A stretch of DNA of 64,000 bases from an uncultured Flavobacteriaceae bacterium (GTDB taxonomy: Bacteria; Bacteroidota; Bacteroidia; Flavobacteriales; Flavobacteriaceae), in NCBI GenBank assembly GCA_905479065.1, contig CAJQLB010000008.1:1-64000 (forward strand), read 5' to 3'. The position numbers and the translations under genes are program-made. This document shows positions 16,370 to 56,512 of the stretch, piece by piece (position 1 is the first letter of the stretch; each line of letters opens with the position of its first letter). The notes beneath the pieces are model-generated. The model was not told the origin of the DNA. It saw only the letters and a list, made by a program, of their open reading frames with translations, and searched no databases.

Positions 16370-17680
16370 TTAATTTTTGTTCAAAGCTGTTTTATATGTA
16401 TCGAGACATCGTTCTCGAGCAAATTTATGTTCAACTATCGGAACAGGGTAGGTAAGCTCTTGATGATCTGGCACCCATTTTCTTATATATGCTAGACTTT
16501 TATCAAATTTTTGAATTTGGGTTGTTGGATTAAAAATTCTAAAATAAGGTGATGCATCAACTCCACATCCAGCGACCCACTGCCAATTGCCGATATTACT
16601 TGACATTTCGTAATCATGTAATTTTTCTGCAAAATAGGCCTCACCAAGACGCCAATCTATAAGTAAGTGTTTGCACAGAAAACTACCTACAAGCATGCGC
16701 ACACGATTATGCATAAAACCAGTTTGATTTAATTCTCTCATACCTGCATCTACTAGTGGGTATCCCGTTTTACCTTCGCACCACGCTTCAAATTCTCTTT
16801 TGTTGTTTCTCCACTTAACATTTTCATACTGTGGTTTAAAACTTTTGGTCACTGTTTGAGGAAAATGCCATAATATTTGCATGAAAAACTCACGCCATAT
16901 TAATTCTTTTAAAAATGTTGTATTATCATTTTTTAACGCTTTAGAAGCCATAAATCTGACGCTTAACGTTCCAAATCTTAGGTGGGGACCTATTTTTGAT
17001 GTACCATTTACACTTGGGAAATTTCTTGTTGCTTCATAATTATCAATGATTTTATTAGAGATATTGTAGGGCGTGATTTTCTGAGGAGATGTTTCAAAAC
17101 TCATGTCCTTTAAAGCTACCATATTTTCAGGTAGTGGGCTTAGTAGATGTTTTAATAAATCCTGGGAACGAAAAAACTTTATGGGATTATTTTCTAAAGC
17201 AGTCATCCACTTTTTCGAATAGGGTGTATATACTTTATAGGGTAGGCCGTCATCTTTTACAATTTCGTTAGTTTCAAAAATAACTTGGTCTTTGTAGCTT
17301 GTAAAACCAATATTATTTTTTTCTAAAAGGCGTTTAATAGATAAATCTCGATTAATGGCATAGGGTTCATAGTCATGATTGGAAAACACAGTTTCAATAT
17401 TGTATTCATGAGACAGCTTATTAAAAATAGCCGTGGGTTTTCCATAATAAGTTCTTATAGTACTACCATACTCATTTTGTAACAAGGTATTCATGTTGCG
17501 AATAGTATCGTGAATAAAGGTTACTCGGGGATCGTCTTTCTTTAAGCTATCAATAATTTCTTTATCAAAAATAAAAATAGCAACTACTGGATGTTTTCCA
17601 TTGAGTGCGTGAAACAGACCGACGTTATCTTCTAATCGTAAGTCACGTCTAAACCAAAATATATTTATCGTTTTGTTCAT
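16370..17680 (-). CDS. phrB: Deoxyribodipyrimidine photolyase (class I CPD type)
   Basis: The 436-residue photolyase/cryptochrome protein repairs UV-induced pyrimidine dimers using blue light. The N-terminal Rossmann-like antenna domain starts NIFWFRRDLRLEDN. The FAD-binding helical domain has KIGPHLRFGTLS, WREFFMQIL, NRVRMLVGSF and NIGNWQWVAGCGVDASPYFR. The asparagine in NIGNWQW is where class I photolyases stabilise the flavin radical. The ATG at 17680 is preferred over a TTG at 17683. It is the last gene of a tight run (SRPBCC, TspO, Lacal_2735, GPx, SDR and others), with only 3 nt between it and the SRPBCC stop. The second cofactor could be a folate or pterin, consistent with folE upstream. 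Confidence 0.93.
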   Translation of the reverse strand: MNKTINIFWFRRDLRLEDNVGLFHALNGKHPVVAIFIFDKEIIDSLKKDDPRVTFIHDTIRNMNTLLQNEYGSTIRTYYGKPTAIFNKLSHEYNIETVFSNHDYEPYAINRDLSIKRLLEKNNIGFTSYKDQVIFETNEIVKDDGLPYKVYTPYSKKWMTALENNPIKFFRSQDLLKHLLSPLPENMVALKDMSFETSPQKITPYNISNKIIDNYEATRNFPSVNGTSKIGPHLRFGTLSVRFMASKALKNDNTTFLKELIWREFFMQILWHFPQTVTKSFKPQYENVKWRNNKREFEAWCEGKTGYPLVDAGMRELNQTGFMHNRVRMLVGSFLCKHLLIDWRLGEAYFAEKLHDYEMSSNIGNWQWVAGCGVDASPYFRIFNPTTQIQKFDKSLAYIRKWVPDHQELTYPVPIVEHKFARERCLDTYKTALNKN

Positions 17681-17683
17681 CAA

Positions 17684-18145
17684 TTAATATTTTCCAAATA
17701 ATTCCTCTAATTTTTTTGTTCTGTAATTGAAAATCTCTTTTAATTTAGGTTGAACAATGTATGGGTGTAATAATTGTCCAAGTATACCAAATGGAACCAT
17801 GTAGTCAATGATGTCTTCCATTTCTACACCTCCTTCAATTTCTTTAATAAAATGCTTATGATGCCACAATTTGTAAGGACCAAATCGCTGCTCATCTACA
17901 AAATAACAGTGATCTTTAACATGCGTTATTTCTGTCACCCATTTCGTTTTAATGCCCATTATAGGAGTTACAATATATTGTATTATTTGACCCGAATACA
18001 TTGATTTCTCAGCACCTTTAAGAATATCGAAGGACATATAATTTGGCGTTATTGTTTTTAAATTTTTAGGATCTGATAAAAAGTCCCACGCCTGTTTTTT
18101 TGAAATTGGTAGGTTTTGTTTTGTATGTAAAGTGTATATTTTCAT
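17684..18145 (-). CDS. SRPBCC superfamily protein
   Basis: The 153-residue single-domain START/Bet v 1-like (SRPBCC) protein has the fold of a hydrophobic ligand-binding cavity. Its start, LHTKQNLPISKKQAWDFL with SDPKNL, is typical of cell-division-inhibitor/SRPBCC annotations found beside photolyases. No catalytic residues are evident. It abuts tspO on one side (TAA then ATG) and phrB on the other, so it is cotranscribed. It might bind a lipid, pterin or tetrapyrrole; this is not shown by the sequence. Confidence 0.82.
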   Translation of the reverse strand: MKIYTLHTKQNLPISKKQAWDFLSDPKNLKTITPNYMSFDILKGAEKSMYSGQIIQYIVTPIMGIKTKWVTEITHVKDHCYFVDEQRFGPYKLWHHKHFIKEIEGGVEMEDIIDYMVPFGILGQLLHPYIVQPKLKEIFNYRTKKLEELFGKY

Positions 18146-18610
18146 TTAATTATAAATTACGATATATAGATTTAAGGAGGAAGCTATAAAAAGCCAAAGT
18201 ATATAGGGACTCAACAAATACTTCGTGTATTTTAATTGTTGATTTTTAAACTTATAAAAATAAAAAACCATCACTACTGTTAATAATGATATGATGATTA
18301 GACCAGTAACTGTCTTTTGTAAATTAAAAAACACATAATTCCAACTAATATTTAGAATGCATTGAACTGTATAAATTGCCCAAAAGTTAACTGAATCTAT
18401 GATTCGTATAAGGGATGCTAGATAAAATGAAAAACATAACATGATAGTGATCCAGGCAATACCAAAAACCCAACCAGGAGGTGTCCAGGGTGCTTGGTTT
18501 AATAGCAAATACCATGCTGAGGATGGACCTTCATTCATTAATATGCTTCCAAAGTAGAGACCGGCAAAATTAGTAATCAAGAATAAGGCGACGTAGCCAA
18601 AATGTTTCAT
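18146..18610 (-). CDS. tspO: TspO/MBR family protein
   Basis: The 154-residue integral membrane protein has five predicted helices. It carries the conserved tryptophan-rich motif NQAPWTPPGWVFGIAW near residues 38-53 and WNYVFF near 89-94. TspO binds porphyrins and related tetrapyrroles and regulates photosystem or stress genes by light and oxygen in Rhodobacter. In this non-phototroph it may handle tetrapyrroles or act as a photo-oxidative stress sensor. It lies directly between the Lacal_2735 gene and the SRPBCC gene with no gaps. Confidence 0.9.
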   Translation of the reverse strand: MKHFGYVALFLITNFAGLYFGSILMNEGPSSAWYLLLNQAPWTPPGWVFGIAWITIMLCFSFYLASLIRIIDSVNFWAIYTVQCILNISWNYVFFNLQKTVTGLIIISLLTVVMVFYFYKFKNQQLKYTKYLLSPYILWLFIASSLNLYIVIYN

Positions 18611-18781
18611 TTAATCTTGTTTGAGAACCTCTATTTGATCAAGTATCCTTTGTGCTTCTGCATATTTTAAGTCACTTTTTGCTCTGTCAATGGAAGATAA
18701 TTTATGCCACTCACTCATGAGCTTTTCATACTCTCTTTCAAGTTTGTTGAGTTTTGAAGTTGTTTTAAATATTCCAAACAT
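18611..18781 (-). CDS. Small Lacal_2735-family protein
   Basis: This 56-residue ORF (MFGIFKTTSKLNK to VLKQD) has its ATG at 18781, overlapping the TAA of the peroxidase gene by one base, and its stop immediately before the tspO ATG. The exact fit leaves no untranslated space. The pattern MFG(I/L)FK, YEKLMSEWHKLS and KYAEAQRILDQIE is that of the flavobacterial Lacal_2735 family, of unknown function. It is helical, charged and probably forms a coiled coil. The family assignment is from memory of the sequence pattern. Confidence 0.82.
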   Translation of the reverse strand: MFGIFKTTSKLNKLEREYEKLMSEWHKLSSIDRAKSDLKYAEAQRILDQIEVLKQD

Positions 18782-19314
18782 TACGATAGGTATTTTGTTA
18801 TTTTTTTACTTAAAGGACTGGTGTTCGAATAAAAATAATTAATTATGTTACCCTCGGGATTAATTAAGTACTTCTGAAAGTTCCATCTAACTGTTGAATT
18901 TTTGTAACCATTCAATTTTTTATTGGTGAGCCAAGCATACAAGGGATGCTGATTTTTTCCGGAAACCATTATTTTCTCTGTTATTAGAAAACTAACACCG
19001 TAATTAACTTGACAAAACTCTTGTATCTCAAATGCATCACCCGGCTCTTGTCTTCCAAATTGATTACAAGGAACTCCAATGATAACGAGTGAGTCCTTGT
19101 ATTGTTCATGAAGACGTTGTAATTGTTTGTATTGTGATGTAAATCCACATTTGGAAGCAACATTTACAACTAACAAATATTTGCCTTTAAAATCAATTAG
19201 TGCAATGGGATTACCTTGTAAACTATTAATATTAAGGTCATAAATAATTTCTGACGTTTCAACAAGATGGTTTGTAGTAAATGGTTTCTTAAACATGGTG
19301 GTTAAAATCATCAT
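18781..19314 (-). CDS. Glutathione peroxidase family protein
   Basis: The 177-residue thiol peroxidase of the GPx family reduces peroxides, in bacteria usually with thioredoxin as donor. The catalytic cysteine (not selenocysteine) is in ASKCGFTSQY near residues 53-62. The glutamine partner is in GVPCNQFGRQEPG near 80-92 and the tryptophan in VRWNFQKYL near 143-151. The N-terminus is about 15 residues longer than usual; ATGs at 19314, 19311 and 19296 are possible, and 19314 directly follows the SDR stop. It is cotranscribed in the photolyase block, consistent with protection against light-generated peroxides. Confidence 0.9.
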   Translation of the reverse strand: MMILTTMFKKPFTTNHLVETSEIIYDLNINSLQGNPIALIDFKGKYLLVVNVASKCGFTSQYKQLQRLHEQYKDSLVIIGVPCNQFGRQEPGDAFEIQEFCQVNYGVSFLITEKIMVSGKNQHPLYAWLTNKKLNGYKNSTVRWNFQKYLINPEGNIINYFYSNTSPLSKKITKYLS

Positions 19315-19998
19315 TTATATTTTAAAATTAACGATACCGCAATCCATTTCCAAAATTTGCCCTGACATCGAAGCGGTTTTGTGGGATAATAAAAATAGTG
19401 CCATTTCAGCAACTTCATCAGGACTAAGAAATTTTTTCAGCGGGTGCCTTTCGGTTATATTCTCAATCATTCTTTCATTTCGTAATAATTTTGCAGCAAG
19501 TTCTGTATCAGTCACTGTTGGAGCTATAGCATTAATTCTAATTTTTGGTGCAAATTCAGCACCTAAAGATTTAACAAGACCCTCTACGCCAGCTTTTGCA
19601 GTCGCTATGCTTGCATGGAATGGCATACCTAATTTCACAGCAACCGTGCTAAACAGCACGATAGATGGATGCTGGCTATCTTTCATAACTCTAGCGTATT
19701 TTTGTATCGCTTTGACTGCTCCAATAACATTGATTTCAAAATCATTCTTAAAATCCTCTATTTTTAGTCGCGATATTGGCTTTAGATTAATACTACCTGG
19801 ACAGTAAACTAAGCCATCCACTTCAGAAATATCAGGAAGTTCCCCGCTTAAAACGTCTACACTGTAATGCGTTAAGTTTTCGTGTTCAATATTTGACACC
19901 GATCGACTTATGCTAATGACTTTATGTGATGGTGTCAAAAGTTTTACGATAGACAAGCCTATACCTTTACTACCGCCAATAACAACAATGGTTTTCAT
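19315..19998 (-). CDS. SDR-family protein lacking the catalytic tyrosine
   Basis: The 227-residue short-chain dehydrogenase/reductase fold has the nucleotide loop GGSKGIG at residues 8-14 and the structural asparagine in FEINVIGA (N90). At the active site the usual S-x12-Y-x3-K reads ST...I131-x3-K135: the serine position is T118 and the tyrosine position is isoleucine. The lysine remains. The family's normal hydride-transfer chemistry therefore looks impaired, so it may be a binding or regulatory protein or use other residues. It overlaps the 76-aa gene by one base (coupled) and abuts the GPx gene. Confidence 0.85.
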   Translation of the reverse strand: MKTIVVIGGSKGIGLSIVKLLTPSHKVISISRSVSNIEHENLTHYSVDVLSGELPDISEVDGLVYCPGSINLKPISRLKIEDFKNDFEINVIGAVKAIQKYARVMKDSQHPSIVLFSTVAVKLGMPFHASIATAKAGVEGLVKSLGAEFAPKIRINAIAPTVTDTELAAKLLRNERMIENITERHPLKKFLSPDEVAEMALFLLSHKTASMSGQILEMDCGIVNFKI

Positions 19999-20230: not shown

Positions 20231-20926
20231 TTAATTATTTATATAGTTATGTAATTCTGTTATTTTTCCTTGATCCTTAAATTGTCCTCCGTAGTAACAG
20301 GTTACTGTCGCCGAGGTATCATCCTTGATCCCTCGTGATGAAACACACAAGTGCTTGGCATCAATAATAACAGCAATGTCTTCAGTGTTTAAAATCTTTT
20401 TTAGCTCATTTGCTATTTGATTTGTCAAACGCTCTTGTACTTGGGGACGTTTGGCAAAATATTGAACAATTCTGTTTAGTTTAGAGAGTCCAATGACTTT
20501 TCCGGATGATATGTAAGCGATGTGTGCACGCCCGATAATCGGTACGAAATGATGCTCACAATTAGAATAAAATGTGATATTTTTTTCTACGAGCATTTGA
20601 TTGTATTGGTATTTATTTTCAAACAACGCAACTTTTGGTTTGTTTTGAGGGTTTAAACCTGAGAAAATTTCATCTATGTACATTTTCGCGACACGCTGAG
20701 GTGTTCCTTTGAGTGAATCATCTGTTAAATCAAGGCCCATTACATCCATGATTTCTTCAAACAAAATGGCAATTCTCTTTTTCTTATCAATATCACTCAT
20801 TTTGAAAGCATCTGGCTTCATTGGAGTGTCTATACCCGTGTAAAGATGGTCGTCGCCAATATCAGTGGCTGTAAAGCCATTTAAATAATTTTTGTTTCTT
20901 TTTAAATTTAGTGTTTTTGTACTCAT
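20231..20926 (-). CDS. folE: GTP cyclohydrolase I
   Basis: FolE converts GTP to dihydroneopterin triphosphate, the first step to folates and pterins. The 231-residue protein has zinc and catalytic residues in SNCEHHFVP near 127-135 and AKHLCVSSRG near 196-205, plus GKVIGLSKLNR. The first 35 or so residues form a non-conserved extension. Its place in a photolyase cluster is meaningful: pterins and folates are antenna cofactors of photolyases, and folE is light-induced with photolyase in several LitR/CarH-controlled bacteria. An 85-nt gap upstream may hold a promoter of its own. Confidence 0.93.
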   Translation of the reverse strand: MSTKTLNLKRNKNYLNGFTATDIGDDHLYTGIDTPMKPDAFKMSDIDKKKRIAILFEEIMDVMGLDLTDDSLKGTPQRVAKMYIDEIFSGLNPQNKPKVALFENKYQYNQMLVEKNITFYSNCEHHFVPIIGRAHIAYISSGKVIGLSKLNRIVQYFAKRPQVQERLTNQIANELKKILNTEDIAVIIDAKHLCVSSRGIKDDTSATVTCYYGGQFKDQGKITELHNYINN

Positions 20927-21011: not shown

Positions 21012-21437
21012 TCAGAATTGAAACTTATATTGATTATCATATTCTATTTTGAAATCTAATAATTTTTTGAAAAATTTTTTGTTTTCTCTCAAGGTCATAT
21101 TATCCTTTAAATGAATAAACTTTCCCTGAGCATGTATGCTTGCACCATTAGTTTTAAAAAACGATAACTGATAGAATGGAATAACCCAATTAAAAGTTTG
21201 TAAACCTTTATTGATGTAAATAATTATTCCTTTTGGTCTTATTTCAATATTTGCGTAATTCAAATCAGAAGTACGATTTAGTAGACTGTTTAAATTGTAA
21301 CTTGTCTTGTCAATGATCATTCGTTTAGATCCAACACCTCTTAATTTCAAGGACTTAAAAAAACTGTAAGGACCTCCAATAAGCTTAGCTATCGTCTTTT
21401 CGTGTTCTTCGTTGTGATATGTGGTATTCAGGAGCAT
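21012..21437 (-). CDS. Conserved protein of unknown function, head of the folE-phrB run
   Basis: The 141-residue soluble protein (MLLNTTYHNEEH to YKFQF) has no signal peptide or recognised motif. It is rich in lysine and aromatic residues, with a predicted beta-rich middle (NIEIRPKGIIIYINKG). Its importance is positional. The 79-nt upstream gap carries operator-like element B, nearly the same as the promoter element of the TetR-like regulator gene, and the folE-to-phrB genes follow it on the same strand. I cannot assign a function. Confidence 0.75.
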   Translation of the reverse strand: MLLNTTYHNEEHEKTIAKLIGGPYSFFKSLKLRGVGSKRMIIDKTSYNLNSLLNRTSDLNYANIEIRPKGIIIYINKGLQTFNWVIPFYQLSFFKTNGASIHAQGKFIHLKDNMTLRENKKFFKKLLDFKIEYDNQYKFQF

Positions 21438-21452
21438 AACATCGATTTTAAC

Positions 21453-21504
21453 CGAAGTTACAAAACGTTTAACTTAATACAATTAACGTTAAACAAAAAT
21501 TAAC
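21453..21504 (-). promoter_or_regulatory. Shared promoter/operator element, copy B
   Basis: This 52-nt segment aligns without gaps to 25565-25616 with 40 identical bases. On the plus strand it contains TTTAAC (21468-21473), 15 nt, TTAAAC (21489-21494), 5 nt, TTAAC (21500-21504). GTTTAAC and GTTAAAC form an inverted repeat. On the minus strand it ends in TAACTTCG, a degenerate -7 element, 16 nt before the ATG at 21437. It is a likely binding site for the TetR-like regulator encoded at 24891-25547 (inference). Confidence 0.6.
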
Positions 21505-21516
21505 ATTTTACAAGAG

Positions 21517-22944
21517 TTAAATTGGCTTTACTAGATTTTTAATCATTCCTTTAAAAATAAATCCGTGAAAGGGCAAAACACTGTACCAATAGAGTCTGCC
21601 TGCTAAACCTCGAGGCCTAAATGTGGCAGTCTGTTTCAGGATGTTATTTTCTATTTTAAATTCTAACCAAGCTTCACCTGGTAGGCGCATTTCAGCGTAA
21701 AGTAAGAGTTTTCTTTTTGATTTGTCAGCATAAATAACTCGCCAAAAATCTAATGCATCACCAACACTGAGTTCTACGGGGTTTGTTCTCCCACGCCTCA
21801 AACCAATACCACCAATAAATTTATCGATACCGCCTCTAATTTTCCATAAGACCGTACCATAATACCAACCTGTTTTACCACCAATTGACCAAATTTTATT
21901 CATGGTTAATTCAATATTTGGAACAGGTCGTTCTTTATAATCTTTAAAACATCCATATTTTGGAATATTGATGTAGTGGTGAAAATTAGTGTTGAGTCTT
22001 CCACTGCTAATTAAAGAATCTTTCCAACTTGAAATAATGGCGTTTTGTTCTATTTTTTTAAAAGCTAATTTGACAGCTGTTTTATAGGTCATAGGTTGAA
22101 CGGAAAGTAAGGTATTGATATTACTGGGTTTGCCTATGATAGGCACACCCATACTTTCAACTAGTTTTGAGGCTAATTTATAGGATGTAGATGTTACAAA
22201 ATATAACCAATACGACGATAATTTTGGTGTCATTATGGGGACTGTAGAAATATGTCGTTTTAAACCCCTTACCTCTGCAAATTCTAATAGCATTTGTTTG
22301 TATGTAAGAATTTCTGGTCCAAAAATATCATACGATTTATTGTAAACATCCCTATGACCAACACTTTTATGTAAAAACGATAATACATCTCTTATTCCAA
22401 TTGGTTGAGTTTTTGTATTAAGCCATTTTGGAGCTATCATAAAGGGTAATTTTTCTACCAAGTCACGGATAATTTCAAAAGAAGAACTCCCAGAACCTAC
22501 AATGATACCCGCTTTAAATATGGTTAAGTTATAGGTTGATGATGGTAATAAATCTTCTACATTTTTTCGTGACTGAAGGTGTTTTGATAAATTAGCTTCA
22601 TTTGTAATGCCACTCAAATAAATAACTTGCTGCACAGTAGTTTGTTCAAGTTTTTTTTTAAAATTAACGGCACAAACTTTTTCTAGATTTTGAAAATTGT
22701 CCGAAGCATTTGACATTGAATGGATTAAATAAAATGCAACGTCAATATCTCTAGGTATTTCAGCTAAGGTGTTTGGTTTTAAAAAATCAACTTCTATAAA
22801 GTCAATTAAATCATCTTGTAGATAGGTGTTGTCAATACGAAATTTGTCGCGGACTGTGCACACTACATGATGTCCGTCCTGCAACAATAATGGAATTAAT
22901 CGCTTTCCAATATAACCAGTAGCCCCGGTAACTAAAATTTTCAT
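21517..22944 (-). CDS. SDR/NmrA-like NAD(P)-binding protein with DUF2867 C-terminal domain
   Basis: The 475-residue protein has an N-terminal Rossmann domain starting ILVTGATGYIGKR (atypical SDR, NmrA-like). Its C-terminal half, from about residue 310, carries the DUF2867 signature: KIWSIGGKTGWYYGTVLW, RVGRTNP-type RRGRTNPVELSVGD, LPGEAWLEF and RGLAGRLYWY. Substrate and reaction are unknown. It starts 3 nt after the flavin reductase-like gene and ends the tetR-ABC1-flavin reductase operon. Proteins of this architecture recur beside photolyases and light-responsive regulators in other bacteria (from memory). Confidence 0.85.
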   Translation of the reverse strand: MKILVTGATGYIGKRLIPLLLQDGHHVVCTVRDKFRIDNTYLQDDLIDFIEVDFLKPNTLAEIPRDIDVAFYLIHSMSNASDNFQNLEKVCAVNFKKKLEQTTVQQVIYLSGITNEANLSKHLQSRKNVEDLLPSSTYNLTIFKAGIIVGSGSSSFEIIRDLVEKLPFMIAPKWLNTKTQPIGIRDVLSFLHKSVGHRDVYNKSYDIFGPEILTYKQMLLEFAEVRGLKRHISTVPIMTPKLSSYWLYFVTSTSYKLASKLVESMGVPIIGKPSNINTLLSVQPMTYKTAVKLAFKKIEQNAIISSWKDSLISSGRLNTNFHHYINIPKYGCFKDYKERPVPNIELTMNKIWSIGGKTGWYYGTVLWKIRGGIDKFIGGIGLRRGRTNPVELSVGDALDFWRVIYADKSKRKLLLYAEMRLPGEAWLEFKIENNILKQTATFRPRGLAGRLYWYSVLPFHGFIFKGMIKNLVKPI

Positions 22945-22947
22945 GTG

Positions 22948-23580
22948 TCATTTATCATTGACGTTAGTTTTCGGTCTTTGGTAACTGAAACGTGTCTTTA
23001 ATTTTGGGATTGCATACCCATCTAAGCCGTTTATAGCAGCTATGTTACCTTTTGATAAATTTATAAATCCATCATTTTCGATCAACTCATCCTTAACGTA
23101 TAAGTCGTTAATTTTACCGATTACCAAAATCGTGTTGTTTGCCTCAATATGATACTCTTCTATGAATTCCATAGACAACTGCAATGGTGAATTTACAACA
23201 AAAGGAGCAGAATGTTGGGATTTATATTCAGGTTCTAAATCAGTAACATCAAACTCAGAGATTTCTTGCTTGTATTTTGCTGACGTATGATGTGCGTCTG
23301 CTAAAATAGTTTCGTGGACATGATTGATTGTGAAAAATTTAGTCTCTTTTATATTGCTGTAGGTATTTCTAATAACAGATGTCGGTCTAGTGAAAAAACC
23401 CAAGAGTGCTGGGTTTGAACCAATATGAATTATGGAACTAAAAATTGCTAGATTATTAATACCTTTTTTGGATACAGAACCGATGAGATTGGCAGATTTA
23501 TAACCGGAACAACTATTAATTAGGTTGATTCGATTCACGTAGTCCATATCGTTGAAGTCACTTTCAGAGTAATGAACCAT
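22948..23580 (-). CDS. Flavin reductase-like (FMN-binding split barrel) protein
   Basis: The 210-residue protein of the flavin reductase-like family has SGYKSANLIGSVSKKGINNLA near residues 24-44, the usual FMN-phosphate contact region, and GFFTRPTSVIRNTY near 61-74. Such proteins bind FMN as dimers and may reduce free flavin or act on other substrates. It overlaps the ABC1 kinase gene stop by one base and is followed 3 nt later by the DUF2867 SDR, so the genes are coupled. A flavin-reducing partner fits a block that includes flavoprotein photolyase. Confidence 0.82.
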   Translation of the reverse strand: MVHYSESDFNDMDYVNRINLINSCSGYKSANLIGSVSKKGINNLAIFSSIIHIGSNPALLGFFTRPTSVIRNTYSNIKETKFFTINHVHETILADAHHTSAKYKQEISEFDVTDLEPEYKSQHSAPFVVNSPLQLSMEFIEEYHIEANNTILVIGKINDLYVKDELIENDGFINLSKGNIAAINGLDGYAIPKLKTRFSYQRPKTNVNDK

Positions 23581-24890
23581 TACAGTGATTTGTAGTTATT
23601 AATCAAAACTCGGTCCGCTTTCAAATCAAACATTAAATTATATAAACCGAAAAATGTTCGATTCATGTATATGAAGTGTTTCGAGCCCCTGTTACCATTC
23701 ATTTTTTTAATCATATTGTTTTTGGTAAACTTTTCTCCGAACACTTTTATCTTTTCAAAAAATTGGCCATCAGAAAAATCGAAAACCTCACTTTGAAAAG
23801 GAGTGGTGAAAAGACATAACATTTCATAAAATAATACTGAGAAAAATTCTTTTTCCTCAGGTGTGTCGTCAGATCGAATGATTTCAAGATCAATCATTTT
23901 TTGATTAAAAATGGCAGGGGTATTTAAATTTTTTTCCTCTGCTAAATCAAAATAGGGAGTGTAGAAATCATCTGGTATCTGTTTCATGCAACCAAAATCA
24001 AGCGCAATTAATTCTGTATTTGCAGAGACTAAAAAGTTTCCAGGATGAGGATCTGCATGTACTTTCTTTAGTATGTGAATTTGATACATGTAAAAATCCC
24101 ATAGGGCTTGACCAATAATATTAGCATTTTGCCTGCTTTTACTTTTAGCAGTATACTCAGAAAGATGAATACCTTGCATCCAATCCATGGTAATGATACG
24201 CTCAGAGGAATACTTCTCATAGTAATTTGGAAACTGTAAGTTTGGTATGTGACGACATCGCATTGCAACTTCACGACTTTGTGAAAGCTCAAGTAAATAA
24301 TTTGTTTCTTCTACTAGTTTACCTTCAACTTCCTGAAAGTAATGGTCAGACTCTTTTCCTTTTAAATTGAACATTTTCACCGCGATTGGTTTTATCATTG
24401 ATAAATCGGAAGAAATACTTTCAGCAACTCCTGGATATTGAATTTTCACAGCAAGCTTTTTCCCATCTTTAAATGCTTTGTGTACTTGACCTATACTGGC
24501 AGCATTTACAGAAGTTGCTTCGAAAGTATCGAATAAATCATTTGGGTGTTTTTTAAAATACTTTTTAAAAGTTTTTAGAACTAGTGCAGGTGATAGAGGA
24601 GGGACTGAAAATTGAGAGAGTGAAAACTTCTCAACGTATGCTTCAGGGAGTATGGTTTTGTCCATACTTAACATCTGTGCAACTTTTAAAGCACTACCTT
24701 TCATTTTCTTTAGACCATCATAAATATCTTCTGCATTATTTTCATGTAAACGTTCTCTAGCAATAACTTCTGAATTTATGAGTTTATCACTGTAATATTT
24801 AACGTAATTGACGCCAACTTTTGCACCTGTTTGCATGAGCTTGGAGGCTCGTTGAATTTTTGATGTTGGAATTTTGTCTATGGTATTCAT
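23580..24890 (-). CDS. ABC1/UbiB-family atypical kinase
   Basis: The 436-residue protein of the ABC1 (AarF/UbiB/ADCK) family has a KxGQ-like motif changed to KVAQ (residues 69-72), an alanine-rich loop AASIGQVH near 118-125, AVKIQYP, catalytic loop HADPHPGN near 276-283 and metal-binding LDFGCMKQ near 294-301. ABC1 proteins support ubiquinone synthesis in proteobacteria and photo-oxidative tolerance in plant plastids. This organism makes menaquinone, so a ubiquinone role is unlikely. It follows the TetR-like gene directly and overlaps the flavin reductase-like gene. Confidence 0.88.
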   Translation of the reverse strand: MNTIDKIPTSKIQRASKLMQTGAKVGVNYVKYYSDKLINSEVIARERLHENNAEDIYDGLKKMKGSALKVAQMLSMDKTILPEAYVEKFSLSQFSVPPLSPALVLKTFKKYFKKHPNDLFDTFEATSVNAASIGQVHKAFKDGKKLAVKIQYPGVAESISSDLSMIKPIAVKMFNLKGKESDHYFQEVEGKLVEETNYLLELSQSREVAMRCRHIPNLQFPNYYEKYSSERIITMDWMQGIHLSEYTAKSKSRQNANIIGQALWDFYMYQIHILKKVHADPHPGNFLVSANTELIALDFGCMKQIPDDFYTPYFDLAEEKNLNTPAIFNQKMIDLEIIRSDDTPEEKEFFSVLFYEMLCLFTTPFQSEVFDFSDGQFFEKIKVFGEKFTKNNMIKKMNGNRGSKHFIYMNRTFFGLYNLMFDLKADRVLINNYKSL

Positions 24891-25547
24891 TTAGCTCATT
24901 TGCATTTTTTCTTTGTACAAAAATTTACCAAAATCTAAAATACCCTTTAAGGGTTTTACGTCTATCAAATCAAAACTTGCATTCACAGCTTTTTCGATAA
25001 AAATATCTGTTTTTTCAAATGAAGCAGACGAATCTTCTAGCCAAAATTTCATGGTAAAAAGTAACTGCAACCAAGCCGATTCTTGCAAACTCTTATTTTG
25101 AATTTTTTCAAAATTAACTTGACTTAAATCAATAAGTGCAATGTCGAGATGTTGTATAAATAGAACAAATCGTTTTTTTAGTTTCACGAGCGTTTTTAAC
25201 TTTTTGAAGTCATTATTTTTGTGTTTTAACGCATAAACTACATAACTTCTGTTAAGTGTTAATATTTCGAAAAAGGTGTAATAAAAACTAAGCAGCTTGT
25301 TCCTAGTATCGTATGTTTTATACTCTGTACTTTTTTCTAAAACATCGAAAGCATTATCAAAAAATGCTTTGAAAATCGATTGTTCAAGGCTATCGAAATT
25401 TACAAAATGCTCGTAGAATTCGATTTCCTTTATTTTATTTTCTTTGGCGAATGCATATACAGAGGACGGTTGTGAATTATTTTCTAAGACATATTCCATA
25501 TATGATGTTATAATGGAGTCGCTCGTAAGTTTTTTCTTTGTTGCCAT
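24891..25547 (-). CDS. TetR/AcrR-like transcriptional regulator
   Basis: The 218-residue helical protein has an N-terminal helix-turn-helix region at about residues 8-52 (SIITSYMEYVLEN, then SVYAFAKENK and EFYEHFVNFDSLE) and a C-terminal ligand/dimerisation region of TetR type. Recognition is by fold pattern; identity to known TetR proteins looks low. It heads the operon regulator-ABC1 kinase-flavin reductase-SDR, with no gap to the kinase gene. The minus-strand TAATTTTG (25565-25572) is its -7 element. A shared inverted-repeat element lies just upstream, so autoregulation is likely. The ligand is unknown. Confidence 0.75.
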   Translation of the reverse strand: MATKKKLTSDSIITSYMEYVLENNSQPSSVYAFAKENKIKEIEFYEHFVNFDSLEQSIFKAFFDNAFDVLEKSTEYKTYDTRNKLLSFYYTFFEILTLNRSYVVYALKHKNNDFKKLKTLVKLKKRFVLFIQHLDIALIDLSQVNFEKIQNKSLQESAWLQLLFTMKFWLEDSSASFEKTDIFIEKAVNASFDLIDVKPLKGILDFGKFLYKEKMQMS

Positions 25548-25564
25548 AAAATACTTTTGTTTAT

Positions 25565-25616
25565 CAAAATTACATAATGTTTAACTTATTTGAATAAAGA
25601 TTAAACAATATTTAAC
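25565..25616 (-). promoter_or_regulatory. Shared promoter/operator element, copy A
   Basis: This 52-nt element lies between the TetR-like gene and the divergent acr3. The plus strand has TTTAAC (25580-25585), 15 nt, TTAAAC (25601-25606), 5 nt, TTAAC (25612-25616). The minus-strand -7 element TAATTTTG is at 25565-25572, 18 nt before the regulator ATG. The boxes cover the upstream promoter regions of both divergent genes. It shares 40 of 52 bases with copy B at 21453-21504. Confidence 0.65.
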
Positions 25617-25630
25617 AGAAACAATAATTT

Positions 25631-25638
25631 TATATTTG
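25631..25638 (+). promoter_or_regulatory. Putative -7 element of acr3
   Basis: TATATTTG matches TAnnTTTG, 40 nt before the acr3 ATG. The third box of element A (25612-25616) falls about where its -33 element should be. Confidence 0.5.
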
Positions 25639-53799: not shown

Positions 53800-53840
53800 T
53801 TAATAAATTATATATTTTTTATTAAAATCATATTTTTATT

Positions 53841-53870
53841 GTTTATTTTTATTTAAAATAGGTTAAACAA
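53841..53870 (+). promoter_or_regulatory. Possible weak relative of element A
   Basis: GTTTA at 53841 and GGTTAAACAA at 53861-53870 have the same spacing (GTTTA to TTAAAC, 22 nt) as in element A at 25579-25606. The third box is missing, and the region is so AT-rich that chance is a real possibility. Confidence 0.25.
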
Positions 53871-53960: not shown

Positions 53961-54740
53961 ATGGAAAAAATTTTGAATCAAGTGCTTGATCTTCCACAAA
54001 TGATCAACTCTAAACTACCAATGAATACATTTAATTCATGGGCAAATGACTCGGAGGGCAATATAGCTTCCTGGGTAGGAAAATTTTACACTGTCTCCGC
54101 ACTCGTTGTGCTAATTGGATCATTGATGGCTGTGCTTTCTCCTTTATGGTCTGGTGGTATGGGAGAAGGAGTAGATATTGTAAGCAGTATTGTAACTATG
54201 GTAGTTTGGGTCTATGCGGCTTTCCCAATAGCTCAGATGATTAGATCGACTGGAGATGGTCTTTCAGAATCAAAATCAGGTATTGTAAATTTCGTCTTCA
54301 AAGATTTAGCTGTTGCAAACATAAAGTTATTAGGTCGCGTTACGGCGTTGGTAGCTTTGTTTGGTGCATTAGCTATGACACTTTCTTGGTTAACGACTCT
54401 CAATGTCTCCACAGATTATGCGACAGATTGGCTTGCGAATGTCGATTATGCCTATGCATTACCAATGGCTGCAGTAAGCGAGGTGACCAATGGCTTAATT
54501 GGACTTGAATTCATAGGGAATATACTTGCTAATGATTGGACAAATTGGGATCCAACCATGGCAGCTGGTGCTTCGTACAGTTGGGATGGATTAATGGCGG
54601 TTGCTTGGGAATATGTTGGTGTTGTTGTAATACTGGCAAAACTTTATGTAGTGTTAGCTTTTTATCACTTCTTTTATGGATTAATTTCTAGCTTTGTAGC
54701 TTGGGTTCAAAATCCGTACTTGCCGTTTAAATCAAAATAA
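53961..54740 (+). CDS. Unknown polytopic membrane protein beside the rhodopsin genes
   Basis: The 259-residue protein has about four membrane helices (roughly 42-62, 73-95, 123-146 and 210-245) separated by tryptophan-rich segments such as WANDSEGNIASW and NDWTNWDPTM. No signal peptide or known domain is recognised. It is monocistronic between dnaK and blh and shares a bidirectional terminator with blh. The location next to the retinal/proteorhodopsin pair is suggestive but proves no link. Codon usage looks like its neighbours. Confidence 0.8.
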   Translation: MEKILNQVLDLPQMINSKLPMNTFNSWANDSEGNIASWVGKFYTVSALVVLIGSLMAVLSPLWSGGMGEGVDIVSSIVTMVVWVYAAFPIAQMIRSTGDGLSESKSGIVNFVFKDLAVANIKLLGRVTALVALFGALAMTLSWLTTLNVSTDYATDWLANVDYAYALPMAAVSEVTNGLIGLEFIGNILANDWTNWDPTMAAGASYSWDGLMAVAWEYVGVVVILAKLYVVLAFYHFFYGLISSFVAWVQNPYLPFKSK

Positions 54741-54760: not shown

Positions 54761-54796
54761 AAAAAGCGCGTGTAGAATTTTCTATGTGCGCTTTTT
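54761..54796. terminator. Bidirectional terminator between the 259-aa gene and blh
   Basis: AAAAAGCGC (54761-54769) pairs with GCGCTTTTT (54788-54796), with G-U-rich continuation of the stem; it overlaps the blh stop codon at 54782-54784. Confidence 0.75.
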
Positions 54797-55678
54797 GTAT
54801 TTTGAAAACATGTTACTCATAACCAACGCATGAGGAAAAGTGATTGCAGCGATAAAAGAGAACAATATGGCGTTCACGATGCGTTCATCTTTTACTATGT
54901 TGTAGACTACAATGATTCCAATAATGGATACCAACCAATAAGGAAATGCGTTGCGAAAATAATTTAAACAGTTCTGTTTAGTATAGTCACCATAAATAAA
55001 TTTAATTTGATCATATAGTGATGGTATGCTGTGCCATAAGATGAAATAAATTGTGAATCCCCATATAAGGGTGGAGACTTTAAAGATAATACAAAATATG
55101 AGCAAATAAAATGTTTCAAGCGCTACAGAATTTCTGAAATTTTCTGACTTACGATAAATAACGACGCTAAGCACCAATAAAACGATTATGTTTAGATTGA
55201 GAATGGTGCTAATTAACGTCTCTGGAATAGAATATGTAGTGATCGATGCAATTGTAAGAATGACATCATCCACATTTAAAACAAACAAAATTTGTAACAC
55301 TAATAACCCATAAAAAAAATAAAAAAACTGACTCAGTGTGGATGAAATATTTAGTTGTTTTGATTCCCAATGTTGTTCTCCAAAATGAAATGCACTAAAA
55401 AGAACAAAGAGTATGAGCGCCATGGAGGGTATAAAATAAAAGAGCATAACAGCTAATAGTATGATTGCGATGTAGAGTCCTAATATTTTTAAAAACATTA
55501 GTCGAGAGGGAATGTTTGCGAATGTATGTATGAGAAGTAAGTCATTGGACCCGTGTAAGATACCAAACGAAAAAATTAAAAAAAAGCCTAATATGATTTC
55601 AGTGTTTCCTGAAAAAATGGAGGTAACCCATAGACCAACGAAACTTAATATAATTGAGAAATTATAAATTTTTTTCAT
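54782..55678 (-). CDS. blh: Beta-carotene 15,15'-dioxygenase, Brp/Blh family
   Basis: Blh cleaves beta-carotene into two retinals, the chromophore of proteorhodopsin. The 298-residue integral membrane protein has about nine helices and the conserved histidines of the family in GILHGSNDL near residue 41, SAFHFGEQHW near 95-104, LWHSIPSLYDQ near 216 and TFPHALVMSN near 281. It is transcribed divergently from the proteorhodopsin gene with 111 nt between the starts, so the two may be co-controlled. The carotene synthesis genes (crtE, crtB, crtI, crtY) are not in this window. Confidence 0.93.
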   Translation of the reverse strand: MKKIYNFSIILSFVGLWVTSIFSGNTEIILGFFLIFSFGILHGSNDLLLIHTFANIPSRLMFLKILGLYIAIILLAVMLFYFIPSMALILFVLFSAFHFGEQHWESKQLNISSTLSQFFYFFYGLLVLQILFVLNVDDVILTIASITTYSIPETLISTILNLNIIVLLVLSVVIYRKSENFRNSVALETFYLLIFCIIFKVSTLIWGFTIYFILWHSIPSLYDQIKFIYGDYTKQNCLNYFRNAFPYWLVSIIGIIVVYNIVKDERIVNAILFSFIAAITFPHALVMSNMFSKYKKRT

Positions 55679-55789: not shown

Positions 55790-56512
55790 ATGAAAACATT
55801 ATCATTATTTATTGAAATTACAAAAATGGATCCAACCGACTATGTTGGATTTACTTTTTTCGTTGGATGTATGGCCATGATGGCTGCTTCAGCGTTTTTC
55901 TTTTTATCGTTAAATCAATTTGACAAAAAATGGAGAACGTCTGTTTTAGTTTCAGGATTGATTACGTTTATTGCAGCTGTGCACTATTTCTACATGAGAG
56001 ATTATTGGGCTGCCACTGGAGATTCACCAACCTTCTTTAGATATGTAGATTGGATTTTAACGGTACCACTTATGTGTGTTGAATTTTACCTTATTTTAAA
56101 AGTAGCAGGAGCAAAGCAAAGCCTCATGTGGAAAATGATAGGACTATCTGTGATAATGCTTGTTACAGGATATTTCGGTGAAGCAGTATATCAAGGGCAA
56201 GCAGCGTTATGGGGTGCCATTTCAGGAGCAGCTTATTTTGTAATCGTGTATGAAATATGGTTAGGTAGTGCCAAAAAACTTGCTGAACAAGCTGGTGGTG
56301 ATGTATTAAGTGCGCACAAAATCTTATGTTGGTTCGTGCTTGTAGGATGGGCTATTTATCCATTAGGTTACATGATGGGTACAGAAGGATGGTATAACAG
56401 TTTTATTCCAGAAGGTAGTATAGATGTAGCATACAATATAGCTGATGCAATTAATAAAATTGGATTTGGCTTAGTTATATATTCATTAGCAGTTAAAAAA
56501 CAAGCTGCCTAA
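55790..56512 (+). CDS. Proteorhodopsin, green-type proton pump
   Basis: The 240-residue seven-helix microbial rhodopsin pumps protons outward in light. Retinal attaches to K223 (ADAINKIGFG). In helix C the primary acceptor is D87, followed by T91 and the proton donor E98 (motif RYVDWILTVPLMCVEFY), the DTE pattern of proton pumps. The spectral tuning site is M95, which fits green absorption; glutamine there would give blue. H65 in AAVHYFYMR is the counterion histidine of the family. The N-terminus seems to be short and not a cleaved signal. It is divergent from blh and ends at a terminator. Confidence 0.96.
   Translation: MKTLSLFIEITKMDPTDYVGFTFFVGCMAMMAASAFFFLSLNQFDKKWRTSVLVSGLITFIAAVHYFYMRDYWAATGDSPTFFRYVDWILTVPLMCVEFYLILKVAGAKQSLMWKMIGLSVIMLVTGYFGEAVYQGQAALWGAISGAAYFVIVYEIWLGSAKKLAEQAGGDVLSAHKILCWFVLVGWAIYPLGYMMGTEGWYNSFIPEGSIDVAYNIADAINKIGFGLVIYSLAVKKQAA

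Follow-up and report, generated by a model that had tools for sequence, protein, structure and literature searches.

Published accounts, as far as the available excerpts go, describe CarH as a tetramer with adenosylcobalamin (AdoCbl) that binds promoter-overlapping TnnACA half-sites in the dark and is released by light (PMC9304148, PMC4557120); its operators are built of the unit nnnnTnnACAn, with TnnACA as the half-site (PMC9304148). In Pseudomonas putida, according to the accessible part of one report, class II LitR proteins control phrB, folE, cryB and ufaM (PMC9758184). We consider here a 64,000-nucleotide stretch of DNA from an uncultured Flavobacteriaceae bacterium (the window: positions 1 to 64,000 of contig CAJQLB010000008.1, assembly GCA_905479065.1), in which two similar 52-base elements precede the two operons of a block containing folE and a photolyase gene. 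A first-pass annotation had taken the elements for binding sites of a TetR-like protein encoded beside one of them, which would repress its own gene, the rest of the block and acr3. This assignment of the regulator is very probably wrong, and comparison with related genomes makes it quite likely that the elements are operators of a 302-aa, B12-binding photoreceptor of the CarH/LitR type encoded on contig C2 of the same genome.

The C2 protein and the CarH/LitR proteins of Thermus thermophilus, Bacillus megaterium and Myxococcus xanthus are alike in their MerR helix-turn-helix (HTH) and B12-binding domains, in the motifs W-x9-EH and ExHxxG, in the position of the gene directly before carotenoid genes and, going by the excerpted operator work, in the half-site TnnACA (PMC9304148). 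The flavobacterial protein differs from them in its wide set of predicted operons. In the Pseudomonas light regulon of the class II LitR proteins PplR and PmlR, as in the one predicted here, a regulator of the LitR family governs phrB, folE, cryB and further genes induced by light; the Pseudomonas site given in the accessible text, T(G/A)TACA, is different from the flavobacterial dyad (PMC9758184).

The dyad and its conservation

Segments 25565-25616 (copy A) and 21453-21504 (copy B) align without gaps with 40 of 52 bases identical; this figure was recomputed and holds. When both strands of the window were scanned, copy A found only one further 52-mer with at least 33 matches (35), and copy B found none. 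The spaced pattern described for the two copies, TTTAACN{13,17}TTAAACN{3,7}TTAAC, matches these two places alone in the genome of 2,415,578 bases (reversed control, 0), and GTTTAAC and GTTAAAC had been correctly recognized as inverted repeats. The distances of 18 and 16 nucleotides to the start codons are right as differences between coordinates, the bases that actually intervene between segment end and codon numbering 17 (A) and 15 (B). Read in gene sense, each copy has in this order a third half-site, TGTTAA, the dyad TGTTTA-N18-TAAAC(A/G) and a -7 box, after which comes the start codon, and in both the third half-site precedes arm 1 with a period of 10 bp. The two -7 boxes resemble the TAnnTTTG type of Bacteroidetes. 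Since each segment thus combines third half-site, dyad and -7 box, the shared 52 bases amount to promoter plus operator.

Conservation was examined in 80 loci of named records, retrieved by alignment of the TetR-like protein and totalling 1.48 Mb, among them Winogradskyella, Polaribacter, Olleya, Algibacter, Arenibacter, Lutibacter and many metagenome-assembled genomes. In 76 of 77 loci for the TetR-like gene, and in 59 of 60 for the 141-aa gene, a dyad TGTnnA-N18-TnnACA is found no more than 200 bases before the gene; it is missing from L318 (Formosa algae) and L298. Block-shuffled upstream regions yielded such a dyad in 0.7% and 0.6% of trials, respectively. The exact form TGTTTAAY-N14-NTTAAACA is present in 70/77 and 49/60 of these upstream regions. 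Over the whole 1.48 Mb, TGTTTA and TAAACA are separated by 18 bases in 143 copies and by any other gap from 10 to 26 bases in 0-4 copies each. Direct repeats of TAAACA have no spacing peak in the same loci, and direct-repeat and everted arrangements were rejected because such a peak is absent. Nearly all of the N18 copies (140/143) lie within 200 bases upstream of a TetR-like (82), 141-aa (56) or crtI (2) start, a share that is biased because the loci were selected through the TetR-like gene. The third half-site at distance 10 recurs at 38/78 TetR-like and 37/59 141-aa promoters of relatives. A TAnnTTT[GA] box begins 4-6 nucleotides beyond arm 2 at 69/78 TetR-like and 56/59 141-aa sites, and at 58/59 of the latter it is found within 30 nucleotides past that arm.

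The cluster itself, comprising genes for the TetR-like protein, ABC1, flavin reductase, DUF2867, in places photolyase-family proteins, the 141-aa protein, FolE, a short-chain dehydrogenase (SDR), glutathione peroxidase, TspO, the 153-aa protein and photolyase, is largely kept in 18 relatives. Both of its promoters carry the element in nearly all of these; G038 (L044) has altered arms and G197 (L037) lacks the 141-aa gene. The intergenic elements are conserved, and the proposal that one regulon joins both halves of the folE-photolyase block stands, the dyad being conserved at both promoters. The inclusion of acr3 fares less well. Only 2 of 74 relatives have acr3 divergent from the TetR-like gene, and on that ground it was rejected as a conserved member; in this genome its -33 region is close to the third half-site, so a local influence on acr3 is possible.

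CarH as candidate reader of the dyad

The genome has two MerR_1 (PF13411) matches, one on C2 (CarH) and one on C18 (L033, L036). The C2 protein combines a MerR HTH (PF13411, 4.1e-13) with a B12-binding_2 domain (PF02607, 6.9e-8) and retains the cofactor motifs W-x9-EH and [DE]xHxxG, as WQTNTISPAHEH and EIHDIG; the residues of CarH concerned with AdoCbl are given in the available part of one study as W131, E141, H142 and H177 (PMC11796333). Its best matches in the PDB include CarH 5c8d, and it was aligned to T. thermophilus 3whp. On C2 the gene is followed by crtI (PF01593), crtB (PF00494), crtZ (PF04116) and crtY (PF05834), and the gap between carH and crtI holds a weaker copy of the element with intact arms, TGTTTA-N18-TAAACA.

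This arrangement recurs in relatives. In 25 of the 29 best-matching carH loci, a script found the dyad around a TATnTTTG box in the carH-crtI gap, where it ends a few bases ahead of the crtI ATG; the four others include L143 (G051), with variant arms, and L148, with TTTA instead of TTTG in the box. At crtI, unlike at the cluster promoters, the -7 box thus lies inside the dyad. As an observation apart, the crtI ATG stands about 7-10 bases past the TATATTTG box in carH-crtI gaps (L128-L155), a distance which suggests that the crtI mRNA is leaderless or has a very short leader.

The arms TAAACA and the third half-site TTAACA conform to TnnACA (operator B has one arm TAAACG), which supports CarH as the reader. 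On the model of the CarH family, AdoCbl-bound CarH would in the dark occupy the inverted half-sites over the promoter and block RNA polymerase; in the light, the cobalt-carbon bond would be broken, CarH would be released and the genes would be transcribed. At A and B the dyad extends into the promoter, and at crtI the -7 box lies within it; repression in the dark fits both arrangements. While the dyad, its spacing and conservation, the gene neighbours and the cofactor residues of CarH are read directly from sequence comparison, binding by CarH, dark repression and release by light are carried over from the family. Light induction of these operons in flavobacteria would likewise have its precedent in the Pseudomonas LitR regulon.

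The operator also varies with the type of CarH. Eleven genomes encode a CarH-like protein only 35-39% identical, with W-x9-EH retained. In these, TTGTCTAA-N16-TTAGACAA with at most one mismatch has 21 forward sites (reversed control, 1), as against 54 sites in the other 188 genomes (control, 29; the control sums were added by hand). A TAGACA-armed site adjoins the second-type carH in 6 of the 11 (G184, G014, G032, G168, G038, G066). TAGACA still fits TnnACA, the change being confined to an 'n' position, and in the variant dyads both arms are changed symmetrically (TGTCTA/TAGACA). In G038 the TetR-like promoter reads TGTCTAAT-N14-GTTAGACA and the 141-aa promoter TGTATAAT-N14-GTTAGACA, while the TetR-like protein is 58% identical to that of the window, as in other relatives. 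G066 has mixed arms, and G025 retains TAAACA arms. The arms thus vary with the CarH type, and the TetR-like protein of G038 is as similar as elsewhere; as a tendency, then, the operator goes with CarH and not with the TetR-like protein, with no strict residue-to-base rule. A strict I-to-K rule for the recognition helix, suggested by L182-L190, was abandoned when G051 broke it.

Weighing the regulators

Co-occurrence was tallied in 199 genomes of the family, the motif being allowed up to 3 mismatches (a control pattern matches in 12/199). The motif is present in 94 of 149 genomes with an ordinary CarH and in 5 of 50 without; for the TetR-like gene the corresponding figures are 89 of 131 and 10 of 68. 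It associates with both genes because these travel together; presence and absence were accordingly dropped as the decider. That the genome tally alone cannot choose is a first point that the CarH reading has to bear, and single cases decide.

Nine CarH-bearing genomes without a match to the TetR-like protein carry the motif at the same threshold, and three of them were inspected in context. In none of the three was a TetR-like gene found. The dyad lies at carH-crtI in G019 and upstream of DUF2452-DUF2805 in G050. In G072 it lies at carH-crtI and a second time some 0.5 kb ahead of an SDR-glutathione peroxidase-TspO-153-aa run; at that place an aquaporin-family gene is followed by DUF2867, and the interval contains no gene for a TetR-like protein, ABC1 or flavin reductase. 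The operator is thus not confined to genomes with the TetR-like gene. Conversely, 20 TetR-like loci were inspected, selected mostly for absence of a motif match. Eleven of them have the TetR-like gene with ABC1 alone of the cluster, and 8 of these are without the dyad (G059, G168, G007, G158, G033, G084, G014 and G124, the last cut by its contig end); G168 has it instead at a separate ABC1-DUF2867-DUF2805 operon. The other 9 loci have further light genes, and the dyad is present in 7, being absent in G040 and in G180, which has most of the cluster and no CarH match.

Set against these cases, a model in which the TetR-like protein itself is the repressor bound at both elements, controlling its own operon together with the folE-photolyase operon and acr3, is improbable. 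That reading gains from the position of the gene, which opens operon A behind the promoter conserved in relatives, from its co-occurrence with the motif and from the fold of the protein, whose AlphaFold2 model (mean predicted local distance difference test score, 83) is that of the TetR family (3c07: Z 16.3, root-mean-square deviation (rmsd) 3.3, 190 aligned). A profile built from its orthologues gives a weak alignment (E 9e-4 with 5gpa) over the N-terminal half of true TetR regulators, which makes a relic HTH likely. The same dyad stands at carH-crtI, however, and the arms differ in G038 even though the TetR-like protein is equally similar there. All 14 orthologues examined match TetR_C_23, yet TetR_N (PF00440), a model with three matches elsewhere in this genome, gave no reported match in any of the 14 for E values up to 10, within the limits of HMMER's filters. 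In the consensus, the region that aligns with the recognition helix is FEExxFYEHF with an invariant Glu41, and the putative recognition-helix stretch of 27 columns has a net charge of -1 to -3 in 13/14 and +2 in one, values that stand without a matched control. The 218-aa protein thus shares the overall fold of TetR-family repressors and departs from them in lacking a TetR_N match, in its acidic recognition-helix region and in a dyad that is not tied to its gene. Taken with the retention of the dyad where the gene is absent and its loss at 8 of the 11 loci with ABC1 alone, this supports neither the binding nor the autoregulation put forward in the first-pass annotation.

The protein may have another role. 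COQ9 is a TetR-fold lipid-binding protein of coenzyme Q synthesis, whose partners are COQ7 and COQ8, not DNA. The COQ9 structure 4rhp matches the model (Z 13.0, rmsd 4.6, 178 aligned, 16% identity), and human COQ9 entries (Z 12.1-13.0, 16-18% identity) occupy ranks including 6, 7, 8 and 11 (Z 12.7-13.0 at these four), where several TetR regulators tie with them; for helical proteins, such Z values may reflect a common arrangement. Pfam COQ9 matches 8 of the 14 orthologues weakly (best E 0.023), and the window protein scores 11.1 bits against it, below the cut-off of 20.5. An ABC1/UbiB-family gene, thus of the COQ8 family, adjoins the TetR-like gene in 76 of 77 relatives. These likenesses of fold and sequence, together with the conserved neighbour, give rise to the idea that the TetR-like protein is a COQ9-like partner of the ABC1 protein, a proposal to which we give about even odds; the sequence match lies under the Pfam cut-off, true TetR regulators score equally or higher, and no quinone role is known.

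It is hardly likely that both proteins act, with CarH switching in response to light at the shared dyad and one operon being modulated through other bases by the TetR-like protein. Bases flanking the arms (consensus TT before arm 1 and ATT after arm 2) are indeed conserved outside the half-sites, but also at the 141-aa promoter; the -7 box and the third half-site account for part of this, and the HTH of the TetR-like protein looks inactive. A promoter class for an alternative sigma factor responding to light or singlet-oxygen stress, instead of a repressor site, would account for the near-fixed distance to the TAnnTTT[GA] box at the two cluster promoters, but is very improbable given that at crtI the same dyad is placed differently, with the -7 box within, and that the arms of variant dyads change symmetrically, as with a dimer that binds a dyad.

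Several further observations weigh against CarH as the reader, the evidence for which is comparative throughout. Known CarH operators are tandem 11-bp direct repeats, whereas the flavobacterial operator is inverted with an 18-bp gap, and its third half-site, with a 10 bp period, occurs at some promoters only, unlike the known tandem repeats. The His that follows the key Trp in T. thermophilus CarH is aligned with Gln in the C2 protein, a difference from known CarH/LitR proteins, so that the lit state of the C2 protein may differ. Among the 29 carH loci, L153 and L156 are without the dyad before crtI. Three of the 11 loci with TetR-like gene and ABC1 alone keep the dyad (G031, G042) or a form one base off (G174), all in genomes with CarH, while in G033, G084 and G124, which have CarH, the TetR-like gene lacks the dyad. 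In G040, a stretch of 11.5 kb is without a dyad, even though this genome carries most of the light cluster and a second-type CarH. G079, G147 and G197, which are 81, 73 and 93% complete, have both the motif and the TetR-like gene but no CarH match, and G005 has one motif match and neither gene. TAGACA-type arms stand at crtI in G051 despite an ordinary CarH recognition helix, so that arm type is not strictly tied to that helix. Finally, Chryseobacterium lacus belongs to the same order as the present organism. Its crt genes and carotenoid synthesis are reported to be induced by light, and in the accessible part of the report no car or lit genes were found and the regulator was left open (PMC7064467).

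The predicted light regulon

If CarH reads the dyad, its regulon in this genome would comprise the operon of TetR-like, ABC1, flavin reductase and DUF2867 genes, that running from the 141-aa gene through folE, SDR, glutathione peroxidase, TspO and the 153-aa gene to the photolyase gene, a DUF2452-DUF2805 operon with three photolyase-family proteins, two fasciclin proteins and, via the weaker site, crtIBZY. The features of the window are collected in Table 1.

Table 1. Operator and promoter elements and genes of the two operons in the window
Feature	Position	Strand	Remark
Operator A dyad TGTTTA-N18-TAAACA, upstream of TetR-like gene	25578..25607	-	CarH-type half-sites TnnACA, inverted
Operator A third half-site TGTTAA (gene sense)	25612..25617	-	also close to -33 region of acr3
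-7 box TAATTTTG of TetR-like operon (copy A)	25565..25572	-	
Operator B inverted repeat TGTTTA-N18-TAAACG (gene sense), upstream of 141-aa gene and folE	21466..21495	-	
Operator B third half-site TGTTAA (gene sense)	21500..21505	-	
-7 box TAACTTCG of 141-aa/folE operon (copy B)	21453..21460	-	
TATATTTG, likely -7 box of divergent acr3	25631..25638	+	inferred from sequence
TetR-fold protein (218 aa), opens operon A	24891..25547	-	TetR_C_23 (PF17931), no TetR_N match, COQ9-like
ABC1/UbiB (COQ8-family) kinase-like protein	23580..24890	-	immediately after TetR-like gene
Flavin reductase-like protein	22948..23580	-	
NAD(P)-binding and DUF2867 protein	21517..22944	-	
141-aa conserved protein, opens operon B	21012..21437	-	no Pfam match
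FolE, GTP cyclohydrolase I	20231..20926	-	PF01227 1.5e-61
SDR	19315..19998	-	
Glutathione peroxidase	18781..19314	-	
TspO/MBR protein	18146..18610	-	
153-aa conserved protein	17684..18145	-	SRPBCC-like by eye, no Pfam match
Photolyase/cryptochrome, closes operon B	16370..17683	-	

The sites beyond A and B in this genome (carH-crtI gap, photolyase operon and two fasciclin genes) were found with looser patterns. A genome scan with TTGTTTA-N18-TAAACA, which operator B escapes through its arm TAAACG, matched at 9 distinct places, with 7 forward and 7 reverse hits (control, 0): the carH-crtI gap, operator A, the DUF2452-DUF2805-photolyase operon, where the dyad lies upstream, the fasciclin genes, position 53839 of the window and two places that resemble chance. 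The latter, C4:139153, within a gene, and C27:177534, upstream of a 1325-aa secreted-looking protein, are probably chance. The window site is a dyad TGTTTA-N18-TAAACA at 53839-53868, about 90 bases upstream of the gene for a 259-aa protein with no Pfam match (53961-54740). This gene neighbours a divergent beta-carotene dioxygenase gene, blh (54782-55678), and a proteorhodopsin-type Bac_rhodopsin gene (55790-56512); by eye, no dyad was seen in the proteorhodopsin-blh gap itself, the nearest being that at 53839-53868.

Membership appears to differ between genomes. One fasciclin-domain lipoprotein gene has two tandem dyads directly upstream (L339:6145-6216), a second fasciclin gene has a single one (L340:5900-5930), and in G032, G038, G168 and G066 a TAGACA-type dyad separates fasciclin-like genes from the second-type carH, to which they are divergent. 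An upstream dyad was found at only 6 of the 30 best-match fasciclin loci, this genome included; fasciclin sites were therefore rejected as a general rule, and regulon membership must vary. Elsewhere the dyad precedes further genes of a light type, namely DUF2452-DUF2805-photolyases, 153-aa-SDR-photolyase, ABC1-DUF2867-DUF2805 and a pair formed by 6-pyruvoyl-tetrahydropterin synthase and folE, which speaks in favour of CarH as its reader. The last order, dyad, synthase gene, folE, is seen in G066 and G135 (L226:3594-4668, L232:2463-3537) and suggests that light drives pterin synthesis. A cobalamin adenosyltransferase-like gene of G135 (L231:4032-4604) ends 78 bases from a TAGACA-armed dyad.

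The CarH family is already known, and what looks new is the inverted operator with its fixed gap and a flavobacterial regulon; no flavobacterial CarH operator or regulon appeared in the literature searched, by titles and abstract openings and with subscription papers mostly outside its coverage. Taken at its widest, the proposal is of a light regulon spanning the Flavobacteriaceae, in which a branch of CarH would read an inverted TnnACA dyad whose gap is fixed at 18 bp and whose arms come in at least two versions (TAAACA and TAGACA). Besides pigments and photolyases, this regulon would take in pterin synthesis, surface proteins of the fasciclin type and a COQ9/COQ8-like pair of TetR-fold and ABC1 proteins easily mistaken for a repressor operon. 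We incline slightly towards this wider proposal. Its lesson for annotation is that an operator should not be assigned by default to the regulator-like gene beside it. The flavobacterial case also offers a test of how CarH works with an inverted operator, and the two arm versions a route to CarH specificity, of use in B12-based light switches. Flavobacteria are major heterotrophs of the sunlit ocean. The operator would explain why folE, photolyases, TspO, glutathione peroxidase and the ABC1 protein travel together, and, being readable, it allows a light regulon to be predicted from genome sequence across the whole family.

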